Below are positions 3,861 to 41,809 of a stretch of DNA of 51,932 nt, piece by piece. Source of the DNA: Gemmatimonadota bacterium (lineage in GTDB: Bacteria > Gemmatimonadota > Gemmatimonadetes > Gemmatimonadales > GWC2-71-9); contig QHVB01000037.1 in assembly GCA_003222195.1 (NCBI GenBank), positions 1 to 51,932 of the forward strand, in the 5' to 3' direction. Each line of letters starts with the position of its first letter. The stretch's first letter is position 1. Under the pieces are notes generated by a model. The model saw only the letters and a list, made by a program, of their open reading frames with translations, was not told where the DNA came from and ran no database searches. Made by a program: the position numbers and the translations under genes.

Positions 3861-3910
3861 TGGACAGGCTAAAGCCTGTGCTCGGCTAACACTGTCCTGA
3901 AGGACAGTCC
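3861..3910. repeat. Left palindromic end of HUH element (hairpins A and P)
   Basis: Two perfect or near-perfect palindromes, ACAGGCTAAAGCCTGT and ACTGTCCTGAAGGACAGT, are separated by a CTCGGC tag. They end three bases before the transposase ATG, so they may also control its translation. Confidence 0.8.
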
Positions 3911-3913
3911 AGA

Positions 3914-4294
3914 ATGTCAGCCCATCAGCTGTTCATTCATCTCGCGTGGACGACGCTTGATCGGAAGCCGATGATCGATGCAGCGACCAGATCGTTCCTC
4001 GAGGAATTCTTCAAGAAGACCGCATCGCGGCAGGATGTCGAGATAGTCGAGTTGGCGCTGCTCAAAACGCACGTGCATATGCTCATTCGTACGCCATCAC
4101 GTATCGATTTGCCTCGATTAGTGCAATTCTTCAAGGGAGGCAGCAGCTTCGCAGCAAGTCGCCTATCGGAGAACGTGTTGGGCTTGCGATGGGCGCCCGA
4201 ATATTCATCGACGAGCGTCGGACCGCGACAGGTGGAAACAGTAAGGAATTATCTACGGGACCAACCGAATCATCATCCCGACGAAGCCATCTAA
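3914..4294 (+). CDS. Short Y1/HUH transposase (IS200-like or RAYT)
   Basis: 126 residues of the Y1_Tnp fold (PF01797). The metal-binding HUH pair is His53-Val-His55 within LLKTHVHMLI, and the probable nucleophile is Tyr113 in VETVRNYLRDQ, followed by a Gln-x-x-His-His end. It should cut and join single-stranded DNA at hairpin ends. It is shorter than most IS200 TnpA proteins (about 140-155 residues), ending just after the catalytic helix, so it may be a minimal or slightly truncated form. Base composition is lower in GC than the flanking genes, consistent with a mobile gene. Palindromes bound it on both sides. Whether it is a true RAYT or a derived IS200 transposase is not settled. Confidence 0.8.
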   Translation: MSAHQLFIHLAWTTLDRKPMIDAATRSFLEEFFKKTASRQDVEIVELALLKTHVHMLIRTPSRIDLPRLVQFFKGGSSFAASRLSENVLGLRWAPEYSSTSVGPRQVETVRNYLRDQPNHHPDEAI

Positions 4295-4300
4295 CGTAAC

Positions 4301-4346
4301 GCTGTCCTTTAGGACAGTGTCTGCCGAGCACACCCTTTAGGGTGTG
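4301..4346. repeat. Right palindromic end of HUH element (hairpins P and B)
   Basis: CTGTCCTTTAGGACAG, a GCCGAG tag and CACACCCTTTAGGGTGTG follow the transposase stop after seven bases. An A-rich run follows on the plus strand, so hairpin B could also act as a terminator for the transposase gene. Confidence 0.8.
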
Positions 4347-6233: not shown

Positions 6234-6306
6234 CACACCCTAAAGGGTGTGCTCGGCAGGCGTTGTCCTTAAGGACAATGTTGGCCGAGCACAGGCTTTA
6301 GCCTGT
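6234..6306. repeat. Compact three-hairpin palindromic element, copy 1
   Basis: Order on the plus strand: hairpin B CACACCCTAAAGGGTGTG (6234-6251), CTCGGC (6252-6257), hairpin P TTGTCCTTAAGGACAA (6263-6278), GCCGAG (6284-6289), hairpin A ACAGGCTTTAGCCTGT (6291-6306). The tags can pair and enclose P, giving a cloverleaf-like fold. It fills the gap between two convergent genes and could terminate both transcripts. Confidence 0.85.
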
Positions 6307-7081: not shown

Positions 7082-8478
7082 TGCTTGATCTTCACCGTCA
7101 ACACGCGGCCCTCGCGCGCGACCTCGGCCTTCGCCGCGCGCAGCGACACGAGCGGCGACTCGATCTGGACATCGCCCTGGGCTCCTGTCGTGACTTTGAC
7201 GCTCGAATCGGCGCCCACCACCGCCCTGAGCACCTGCGCAGTGCGATCCTGCACGACCGGCGTGTTGAACGTCGCCTCCAACGCGTCACCCGCGCAGGCT
7301 CGGAGCCAGCGCGTGTGCAGCAGCACCCCGGGCTCGACCTGCAGCAGATTTTGCGGATCGATCCCGCACAGGCCGAGGTAGCGGCCTTCGACCGTGACGA
7401 CCAGCTGGACGCCTGGCGCGTTGAGGACGCTGTCGACCTGCGCGCGCCGGTACGCGCGCAGCCGGCCGACACCGGAATCGGCCGCAGTGCGGAGCTTCGC
7501 GACCCCGAATGTCGATTCGGCCTGCCGGCGCAGCGCACGCTCCTCGGCGCGATAGCCGGATGCGTCGGCCAACGCATCCTGGACCGTCAGGTTCTCATCG
7601 ATCAGGCGAGTTTTCCACGCCGGCCCTTCGAGCGCATCGAGCAACAGCCCAAGCGCGGGGCCGGTCGCGTAGTAGCGCAGGCGTATCGACCGTGTCGCAT
7701 CTTCGGTAAGCTTGCGGAGACCGAGCAGCTTGCCGTTCTGCAGCCGCGTGGCGCCGGCGCGATCGGGGAAGCCGCGCTGCCGCGTGGCGAGCTGCACGGC
7801 GCGCACCAGCGTGTACTCCGCCAGCCCTTCATTTAACTCGACGAGCTGCTCGAACTGAGCGAGTTCCGCGCCGAGCGCGCGCTGCCGCGTTTCCCGGACC
7901 GCGAGGAACTGGCGGGCGAGGGTCCTTTTCTGCGCCTTCGACGTCGCGCGTTCCGTCGCCTCGAGGATCCGCCCTTCCAACGCCATGCCCGCTTCGTTCT
8001 GCGGATCGAACACGGGATAGCTCGTGACCAGAAATGAGTTCTCGCCCTGGCCGAAGCGCCTGCCCTCTTTCTTCGACGCCGCTGCAAAGACGTGAAATGC
8101 CTCGTGCGTCGTGAGGCCGACGAGTGCGGCAATGGTTGTGGAGTCGCTCACCACGACCTGCGCCGTGGGTTGGCCGGCGAGCTGCGTTCCGGTGCTGGCG
8201 GCGCCGCGGTCGGCCGCCGACCGCCAACCGCTGCCGGCAAGACCGTCGATGGGGAGAAACCCTTGCGGCAACTCGCCACGCCAGCCGAGCAGCAGCGTGC
8301 CCTGTCCGGCGACGACGTAGAGCACCGGAATCGTATCGGGGCGGAAGCCGGGCCAGATGGAGTCGCCCTGCGCACGGCCGAGGCGCACGACCCAGTCGTG
8401 CGCCGTGGCGATTTGCCGCGTGCGGTCTTGAGGAGGCCCTTGAGCGATCACGGCAAGGCAAAACGCAACTGGCAGCAC
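7078..8478 (-). CDS. Secreted HExxH metallopeptidase-like protein, unassigned family
   Basis: 466 residues starting at GTG 8478, with GGAGGAG about seven bases upstream. A short signal (MLPVAFCLAVIAQ) suggests export. Zinc-site residues are HEAFH at 125-129 and a downstream helix NEGLAEY at 216-222 with Glu217 as likely third ligand, the gluzincin pattern, about 90 residues apart. The C-terminal 100 residues have a pair of Cys (LCGIDPQ and RACAGD) and a beta-rich end. No known peptidase family is recognised, so catalysis is inferred from motifs only. It is coupled to the methyltransferase gene. Confidence 0.75.
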   Translation of the reverse strand: MLPVAFCLAVIAQGPPQDRTRQIATAHDWVVRLGRAQGDSIWPGFRPDTIPVLYVVAGQGTLLLGWRGELPQGFLPIDGLAGSGWRSAADRGAASTGTQLAGQPTAQVVVSDSTTIAALVGLTTHEAFHVFAAASKKEGRRFGQGENSFLVTSYPVFDPQNEAGMALEGRILEATERATSKAQKRTLARQFLAVRETRQRALGAELAQFEQLVELNEGLAEYTLVRAVQLATRQRGFPDRAGATRLQNGKLLGLRKLTEDATRSIRLRYYATGPALGLLLDALEGPAWKTRLIDENLTVQDALADASGYRAEERALRRQAESTFGVAKLRTAADSGVGRLRAYRRAQVDSVLNAPGVQLVVTVEGRYLGLCGIDPQNLLQVEPGVLLHTRWLRACAGDALEATFNTPVVQDRTAQVLRAVVGADSSVKVTTGAQGDVQIESPLVSLRAAKAEVAREGRVLTVKIKQ

Positions 8479-29159: not shown

Positions 29160-29188
29160 GAAATCAGATGTCCCATTCGTGTTATCGA

Positions 29189-29259
29189 CACCCTGAAGGG
29201 TGCGCTCGGCACTTCACTGCCCTTAAGGGCAATGACGGCCGAGCGCAGGCTTTAGCCTG
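29189..29259. repeat. Compact three-hairpin palindromic element, copy 2
   Basis: Hairpin B variant CACCCTGAAGGGTG (29189-29202), CTCGGC (29205-29210), hairpin P TGCCCTTAAGGGCA (29218-29231), GCCGAG (29238-29243), hairpin A CAGGCTTTAGCCTG (29246-29259). Base changes in the stems relative to copy 1 are matched on both arms, so pairing is kept. It lies between thrS and the thiolase gene. Confidence 0.85.
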
Positions 29260-29265
29260 TGAACC

Positions 29266-39626: not shown

Positions 39627-40570
39627 TGATGGAGCAGGCGGTCAAAAGACAACTGCGACGGTCAAGAGACAACGGCGGCGGTCGGGCGGTCGCAGTTGAC
39701 CGCCGCATTTGTTTCTTGACCGTCTCGACCGCCGCCTTTGCAGTCTTGACCGCGAGCCTATCCGCCCAAACTCTCGATAGCCTTGCAATCCGTTTCTCAG
39801 GGATGACGGCGATCACAGGTTATGAGCAAGCCGTCACCGATTCTCTCCTCTCGCTCCTCCCCGGCAGCACCCGCGACCGCCTCGGCAACGTCACGCTGAC
39901 CCTCGGTCGCGGCACGCCCAGGCGGCTGGTCTATTGCGCGCTCGATGAGGTGGGGTACGTGATCGGCAACATCACCGACGACGGGTACCTCCTGCTGCGG
40001 CGCGTGGGCGGTGGACAGCGGTTGTCACCGCTGTTCGATCAGCAGATCGAGGGCCAGCGCGTCACGCTGTTCGGCCGGAAGGGCGCCGTGCCGGGCGTCG
40101 TGGCCGTGCGCTCGACGCACCTCACCCGCGGGCGGCCGGCGCGCGAGGAGCCGCCGTTTACGGTGGACAATGCCTACGTCGACGTCGGCGCGAGCTCGCG
40201 CGACGAGGTGCTCGCGCTGGGCATCTCGATCCTGACACCCGTGTCGCTCACGAAACGCCCCCACCGCTACGGCGACCGTCTCCTCGCCGCGCCCAACGCC
40301 GGCCGCCGCGCCGCCTGCGCCGCCCTGGCGTCCGCGGCGCTGTCGCGCCCACGCGTGCGCGGCTCCGTCGTCGTCGCCTTCACGGTGCAGAGCCTCTACG
40401 CCGACACCGCTGGGCTCAGGACGGTCCTGAGCACGCAGGGGCCGTTCGCGGGGGCTCGACCGGTAACGGTGCCATCCAAGTTCGCGGAGACCACGGTGGA
40501 GACGGTGGCGCTGAAGGACGTGGAGGCGCTGGTGGCCGACGTCATGAGATGGATTGGAGGTGGCCAATGA
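39623..40570 (+). CDS. Exported M42-peptidase-like protein, metal ligands lost
   Basis: 315 residues with GGAGG five bases before ATG 39623. It aligns by eye to the M42 aminopeptidase downstream, but the ligands are missing: the zinc His is Ala106 (YCALDEVG against VAHLDEIG), the bridging Asp region reads NAGRRAACAAL against FDDRMGCAAL, the Glu pair reads SLYADTAG against TREEIGLEG, and the last His reads FAETTVE against YSHSPVE. The final third is also shortened. It is probably a catalytically dead partner or regulator. Residues about 6-44, the whole signal region, are encoded by an inverted GGCGGTCAA microrepeat array. Confidence 0.82.
   Translation: MMMEQAVKRQLRRSRDNGGGRAVAVDRRICFLTVSTAAFAVLTASLSAQTLDSLAIRFSGMTAITGYEQAVTDSLLSLLPGSTRDRLGNVTLTLGRGTPRRLVYCALDEVGYVIGNITDDGYLLLRRVGGGQRLSPLFDQQIEGQRVTLFGRKGAVPGVVAVRSTHLTRGRPAREEPPFTVDNAYVDVGASSRDEVLALGISILTPVSLTKRPHRYGDRLLAAPNAGRRAACAALASAALSRPRVRGSVVVAFTVQSLYADTAGLRTVLSTQGPFAGARPVTVPSKFAETTVETVALKDVEALVADVMRWIGGGQ
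39637..39753. repeat. GGCGGTCAAGAGACAA inverted microrepeat array, copy 1
   Basis: Units GGCGGTCAAAAGACAA and CGACGGTCAAGAGACAA on one side pair with GACCGCCGCATTTG and TTCTTGACCGTC on the other, making a long imperfect hairpin. It encodes most of the signal peptide of the M42-like protein. A second copy precedes purH. Confidence 0.8.
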
Positions 40571-41702: not shown

Positions 41703-41807
41703 GGCGGTCAAGAGGCAAATGCGGCGGTCAAGAATCAAAGGCGGCGGTCACGACCGCCCCGACCGCCGCAGTTGCAGTTTGACCGCCGCCGTTGTTTCTT
41801 GACCGCC
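41703..41807. repeat. GGCGGTCAAGAGGCAA inverted microrepeat array, copy 2
   Basis: Three rightward GGCGGTCAAG or GGCGGTCA units pair with GACCGCC units up to 41807, two bases before the purH ATG. No ribosome site is visible between the array and ATG. The units match those at 39637-39753. Confidence 0.8.
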
Positions 41808-41809
41808 TC

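Follow-up and report, generated by a model that had tools for sequence, protein, structure and literature searches.

A probable REPtron-like pairing of an IS200/IS605-type HUH transposase with palindromic repeats bearing a CTCGGC/GCCGAG tag in Gemmatimonadota

The window examined here, a stretch of 51,932 nucleotides of Gemmatimonadota DNA from the draft genome G000, contains between positions 3864 and 4346 a transposase gene, tnpA, enclosed by hairpins and short tags, and elsewhere two compact elements. An earlier note on this DNA had given the order A-CTCGGC-P-tnpA-P-GCCGAG-B, which is correct to the base, as are the compact copies, and the features are the following:

3864..3879, + strand: left outer hairpin A, ACAGGCT-AA-AGCCTGT, ACAGGCTAAAGCCTGT (sequence, end comparison, single-strand fold)
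3881..3886, + strand: left tag CTCGGC (sequence; same position in homologous units)
3891..3908, + strand: left inner hairpin P, ACTGTCCT-GA-AGGACAGT, its letters at 3892-3907 being CTGTCCTGAAGGACAG (sequence, homologous ends, fold)
3914..4294, + strand: tnpA, ATG start, 126-residue HUH/Y1 transposase (H53, H55, Y113, Q117)
4302..4317, + strand: right inner hairpin P', CTGTCCT-TT-AGGACAG, CTGTCCTTTAGGACAG (sequence, homologous ends, fold)
4323..4328, + strand: right tag GCCGAG, complementary to the left tag (sequence)
4329..4346, + strand: right outer hairpin B, CACACCCT-TT-AGGGTGTG (sequence, homologous ends, fold)
6234..6306, no strand assigned: compact element with three hairpins, A-CTCGGC-P-GCCGAG-B, where the 3' ends of two convergent genes meet
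29187..29261, no strand assigned: second compact element of the window

The left end of the tnpA unit is near-identical to the reverse complement of the right end, so that the two are inverted repeats, and these ends match the compact copy at 6234-6306 over 47 nt at 94% and 50 nt at 88%. The compact copies consist of both ends without the gene, with one P in common, and the arrangement that the earlier note had described as a compact element split open around an inserted gene is better read as a gene lying between the two ends of an element. Elsewhere in the window, inverted GCGGTCAA-rich repeats (39636-39686 and 41758-41808) surround two peptidase-like ORFs.

A hairpin directly before CTCGGC is found five times in the window (200 first-order Markov shuffles give 0.17 on average), four of the five sites being these elements and the fifth, near 8382, lying within coding sequence; and a 77-nt compact copy folded as single-stranded DNA gives z = -6.0. 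On these two grounds the hairpin-tag arrangement is not due to chance. The predicted single-stranded fold of the window copy has the three hairpins for which the earlier note had proposed a folding check, the tags forming the stem below P, and among five compact-copy strands folded, only that of L014, which has two closely similar outer hairpins, is predicted as one long hairpin. The same note had weighed a gene of unrelated family, with hairpins that would be terminators, and more broadly these structures could be transcription terminators or RNA elements flanking a transposase gene by chance: they are often intergenic, in one instance between convergent genes. However, the hairpins gave no Rfam match and have no terminator-like site, the gene encodes a true HUH/Y1 transposase, and the invariant paired tags, the presence and absence of copies, and the co-variation of the tag, all described below, would be left unexplained, for which reasons we consider this explanation extremely improbable.

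The tnpA gene encodes a complete 126-residue HUH/Y1 transposase of IS200/IS605 type. The protein matches PF01797 with 72.9 bits (cut-off 23; E 3e-20) and the NCBI IS200 model NF033573 with 61.7 bits (above the cut-off of 55), its AlphaFold model has a pLDDT of 93.8, and its best structural matches by E-value are the ISDra2 and IS608 transposases, many of them solved together with end hairpins, the E. coli RAYT (4er8) having a weaker E-value. The HUH and the Tyr are conserved in the aligned homologues, the signature of the window protein is YLRDQPNHH (Y---Q--HH), with Y---Q--RH in many relatives, and most homologues have ~126-155 residues, so that the gene is not shortened; thus, the HVH and Tyr113 of the earlier note were rightly read, and its description of the protein as short was not. 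Identity as a RAYT (class 2) was considered and rejected: Y---NP is absent (YLRDQ instead), the RAYT model NF047646 gives 28.4 bits, below its cut-off of 80, and there is no GT[AG]G foot. In the tree against RAYT and IS200 proteins that had been suggested (41 rows; deep order of the clades weakly supported, root for drawing only, E. coli RAYT branch very long), clades A, B, and C, which bear CTCGGC, each have good support and, together with D and E, group with the IS200 references, apart from the two RAYT rows.

Homologues of tnpA occur across one Gemmatimonadota family, in at least three subclades, with the same double-hairpin, tag-bearing inverted ends, and this end architecture is repeated at homologous genes in many genera. 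A contig scan with a narrower protein alignment found 15 loci, of which 14 are titled Gemmatimonadetes and one Actinobacteria, the scaffold name of the latter suggesting the same kind of sample as the others. No relatives of tnpA were found in viral contigs, and plasmid matches to the protein were at most ~33% identical among the matches listed. The draft assembly of G000 has one tnpA of this kind; it also has a second Y1 gene, of class 2 (YIRDNP) type, encoding 191 residues (L026:714-1289, on C67). A further Y1 clade (L050, L052, L053, L064, L067, L070), most of its members having CCCGGGC-type hairpins on their flanks and no CTCGGC tag, is possibly another transposase/palindrome pair.

The search of the genome for further copies, the lack of which the earlier note would have counted against its proposal, gave ~10 compact copies outside the window, and the gene-less copies of G000 are more numerous than tnpA. 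Its 12 compact places are C85:39047, C85:13363, C85:1218, C87:31533, C87:27751, C80:51324, C80:38573, C59:26912, C59:14588, C14:6232, C14:29185, and C2:19804, of which C59:14588 and C2:19804 are degraded on one side; several interrupted copies, and half copies at contig ends, are found besides. Compact copies of ~73-80 nt contain both ends and a single P, while those of ~95-120 nt contain two P hairpins around a short spacer. When 18 compact copies of the genus are aligned, 96.1% of the cells are paired, two-sided changes number 46 vs 19.0 in shuffled alignments, pointing to compensatory variation of the stems, and the tag pair is invariant in all 18. The outer hairpins are of unlike type in 17 of these copies, where random pairing of ends would give 11.9, and alike in one, where it would give 6.1 (p = 0.005), figures that are indicative only, several of the 18 being the same site in different genomes. 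The derivative thus keeps both ends and, as at the gene, unlike outer hairpins, which agrees with the proposal of an autonomous parent and a compact derivative, "autonomous" being a property suggested by comparison.

An insertion sequence with IS110-like protein ends interrupts the P palindrome in several copies (L013, L020, L025; L019, L022, L024; G000 contig ends), its ends, read by eye, being MAPTIFVGIDVSKDTL... and ...ACMRKLLTILNAMARTHTPW; a short 3' fragment of it gave no Pfam match, and C85:1218 carries ~22 nt identical to its left end. At L017 (C85:13365-13440) in G000, G009, and G001, the element seems, by eye, to be read in frame with a lipoprotein-like gene, extending its N-terminus.

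When 101 genomes were searched with model R1, copies were found in 20 of the 23 with a strong tnpA homologue (E < 1e-15, a limit chosen after seeing the list) vs 10 of the 78 others (Fisher p = 5e-11, a statistic not corrected for relatedness); G006 and G007 have copies and no detected tnpA homologue, both being MAGs in which loss is possible. Within clade A, the rows L032, L033, and L034 form a supported subclade whose ends, together with those of the similar L079, have CCCRR...GGG in place of CTCGGC...GCCGAG. Dispersed copies, namely the seven R1-matched ones fetched from G034 and four from G004, also read as CCC-tagged, and in the CCC-tag set 94.8% of the cells are paired, with 21 two-sided changes vs 4.8 shuffled. 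In a comparison of the CCC model (R2, built from G034 and G004 copies) with the CTCGGC model, made by eye in nine genomes, copies with a score higher by 8 bits or more on the former were found, among the matches listed, in G034, G004, and G002 only, precisely those in which the CCC-subclade tnpA was found, two of these matches in G004 and one in G002 adjoining tnpA itself; the largest excess in the other six was 4.6 bits among the matches listed, and one G034 copy used in building the CCC model, C84:4657, scores better on R1. The tag switch is a single event in one clade. Five aligned positions distinguish the CCC subclade from all the aligned CTCGGC-bearing proteins, among them residue 94, directly after the conserved Trp, which by analogy would be homologous in position to Q95 of TnpA-REP, one of the residues contacting GTAG (PMC8266576). 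The suggestion that this pairing is distinct from that of the GTAG REPs fits with these results, the homologues keeping the CTCGGC architecture and one subclade having changed its tag along with dispersed copies.

Empty sites, whose search in other genomes had also been proposed, were sought by joining the flanks of ten copies and looking for them in nine congeners, eight of these sites being then aligned with the relatives obtained (the other two, C87:31533 and C59:26912, were covered by the search alone). The genomes are MAGs, identity in many of the flanks is 75-90%, and an absence may represent loss or an element never gained; with this reading, at least one congener is without the element at seven of the eight sites. 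C14:6232 (window 6234-6306) is absent in G009, G008, and G007, with reduced remnants in G004 and G001; C80:51324 is absent in G009, G001, G005, G003, and G008, with full or degraded copies in G007 and G004, a short non-matching sequence in G006, and a single hairpin in G002; C87:27751 is absent in G009, G007, G002, and G008, reduced to a remnant in G001, and present in G004; C80:38573 is present in G009 and G002, and absent in G001, G004, G008, G007, and G005; at C85:13363, G009 and G001 have the element, G004 has part of it, G006 has none, and G008 and G007 have a short non-matching sequence; and C85:39047 is absent in G007, G006, and G003, G009 having other sequence there. At C14:29185 (window 29187-29261) no absence was found, the sole relative aligned, G009, having a strongly reduced form. 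Since the element is missing in congeners at seven sites, the elements came and went. Their distribution is not always in line with relatedness, a point against our reading: the nearest relative, G009, is without copies found in G004 or G007, so that losses must have accompanied gains, or insertion must have recurred.

The seventh site, C85:1218, is the only one with a clear junction: the element is present in G002 and absent in G009, G008, G006, G005, G004, and G007, and these six run straight through at GA-ATGA, where G000 and G002 carry the insert, ATGA standing on both sides when the site is filled and once when it is not. Either a 4-bp duplication or a shared cleavage motif could account for this ATGA. 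At this site G000 and G002 have outer hairpins of the same two types in opposite order, which would be consistent with inversion in place or with independent insertions, and which counts against our reading, as simple IS200 transposition does not predict it. ATGA/TCAT recurs in the flanks of copies, but several of the sites are stop/start overlaps of genes, and no target specificity is claimed. As for the tnpA unit, G009 has it at the same locus, G002 has a truncated form there, and the locus in G006 is without it; no match to it was found at this locus in G008, and a degraded copy lies in a neighbouring, different intergenic region in G004.

All this might be no more than an ordinary IS200/IS605 insertion sequence with MITE-like derivatives, using the same cut-and-join chemistry and having no special pairing of transposase and repeat. 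The protein is of the IS200 class, tnpA occupies different intergenic places in G000 and G004, and in published work IS200 has been paired with MITEs or palindrome-associated elements. However, IS200/IS605 elements are without terminal inverted repeats (PMC2817692), and here there are near-perfect inverted double hairpins; subclass 1.1 has a mean of 4.8 copies at 99.4% identity (PMC6006769), and here the genome has one tnpA of this kind, the copies within one relative are diverged, and the gene-less copies outnumber the gene. We consider this explanation unlikely.

In summary, the element family is real, structured, and patchily distributed, and it has the organization of a REPtron or REPIN, with inverted palindromes on either side of the gene and gene-less inverted pairs scattered through the genome, while failing the protein and tag tests of a RAYT. 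Sequence comparison shows the architecture, the compensatory changes, the dispersal of copies, their presence or absence at given sites, and the co-variation of tag and transposase, and these point to an IS200/IS605-type HUH transposase and its cognate palindromic repeats that together probably constitute a REPtron-like pair with its own paired tag. The TnpA, probably dimeric like those of IS608 and ISDra2, would recognize the folded single strand of an end, that is, (i) the outer hairpin with its CT-NN-AG apex, (ii) the tag CTCGGC as putative recognition element, and (iii) the inner hairpin P. As the ends are inverted and the tags complementary, a single strand with both ends could fold into a clover formed by hairpin A, a tag stem topped by P, and hairpin B, and the TnpA would cut and rejoin at the outer flanks, the presumed cleavage points, moving the tnpA unit or, in trans, the gene-less copies, which we infer to have been mobilized by this product. 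The low copy number counts against this reading, as do the copies of G006 and G007, where no tnpA homologue was detected, and the fact that the tag changed once, in a single clade. More tentatively, we suggest that a separate palindrome-mobilizing lineage may have arisen from IS200-class proteins in Gemmatimonadota, independently of the RAYTs, with a complementary paired tag, not GTAG, read by the transposase and re-targeted at least once. No description of such elements in Gemmatimonadota was found in the open papers searched. The clade offers a densely sampled case that combines an IS200-class protein, REPIN-like repeats, many congeners that have or lack a copy at a given site, and a change of tag with few differences in the protein, which together make the rules of transposase-repeat recognition testable.

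RAYTs and REPs are thought to have derived from IS200/IS605 transposons. The present system resembles both. As in the REPtron/RAYT (TnpA-REP) with its REPs and REPINs (PMC2817692; PMC3116915; PMC8266576), a single-copy Y1 gene lies between inverted palindromes, gene-less inverted pairs are dispersed, a tag stands beside the hairpin, and transposase and repeat change together; unlike it, the protein is without Y---NP and below the RAYT model cut-off, the tag is CTCGGC/GCCGAG or CCC/GGG rather than GTAG, each end has two hairpins, and the copies are far fewer than those of REPs, usually >100 per genome (PMC2817692). With IS200/IS605 (IS608, ISDra2) it shares the HUH/Y1 fold and protein class, end hairpins, and small size, but its ends are true inverted repeats of two hairpins each, no tnpB lies between them, and several near-identical tnpA copies per genome were not encountered in the draft assembly, only this one and the class 2-like Y1 gene.

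Non-GTAG palindromes beside IS200-like proteins have a precedent in the class 3 TnpA-Y1 of Quentin 2018 (PMC6006769), proposed as an intermediate between IS200/IS605 and RAYT/REP, a class to which the window gene could itself belong. The class 3 proteins, IS200-like and mainly of Planctomycetes, Acidobacteria, and Proteobacteria, have atypical flanking hairpins with a 5' foot CnGA, and dispersed copies (PMC6006769); here, too, there are non-GTAG hairpins, dispersed copies, a W-A motif that fits W[TA], a mixed IS/REPtron character, and CCGA within GCCGAG at the 5' foot of hairpin B, this CnGA-like foot being found in the CTCGGC clades and not, as such, in the CCC subclade. Nevertheless, class 3, compared here by its description, is characterized by Y----Q, a core of 155 residues, and a median length of 178 residues, against Y---Q and 126 residues in another phylum, and membership seems doubtful to us; class 3 is a precedent for the mixture of IS and REPtron, two of its protein features being absent here. 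The signature Y---Q--HH (YLRDQPNHH) is shared with subclass 1.2, but the latter is reported without REPs, with a C-terminal domain, and mainly in Cyanobacteria and Bacteroidetes (PMC6006769), whereas the present protein is accompanied by REP-like repeats and has no extra C-terminal domain. Finally, the CGTC-tagged palindromes are likewise a non-GTAG tagged family, but with another tag and reported without a dedicated transposase (PMC3733652).
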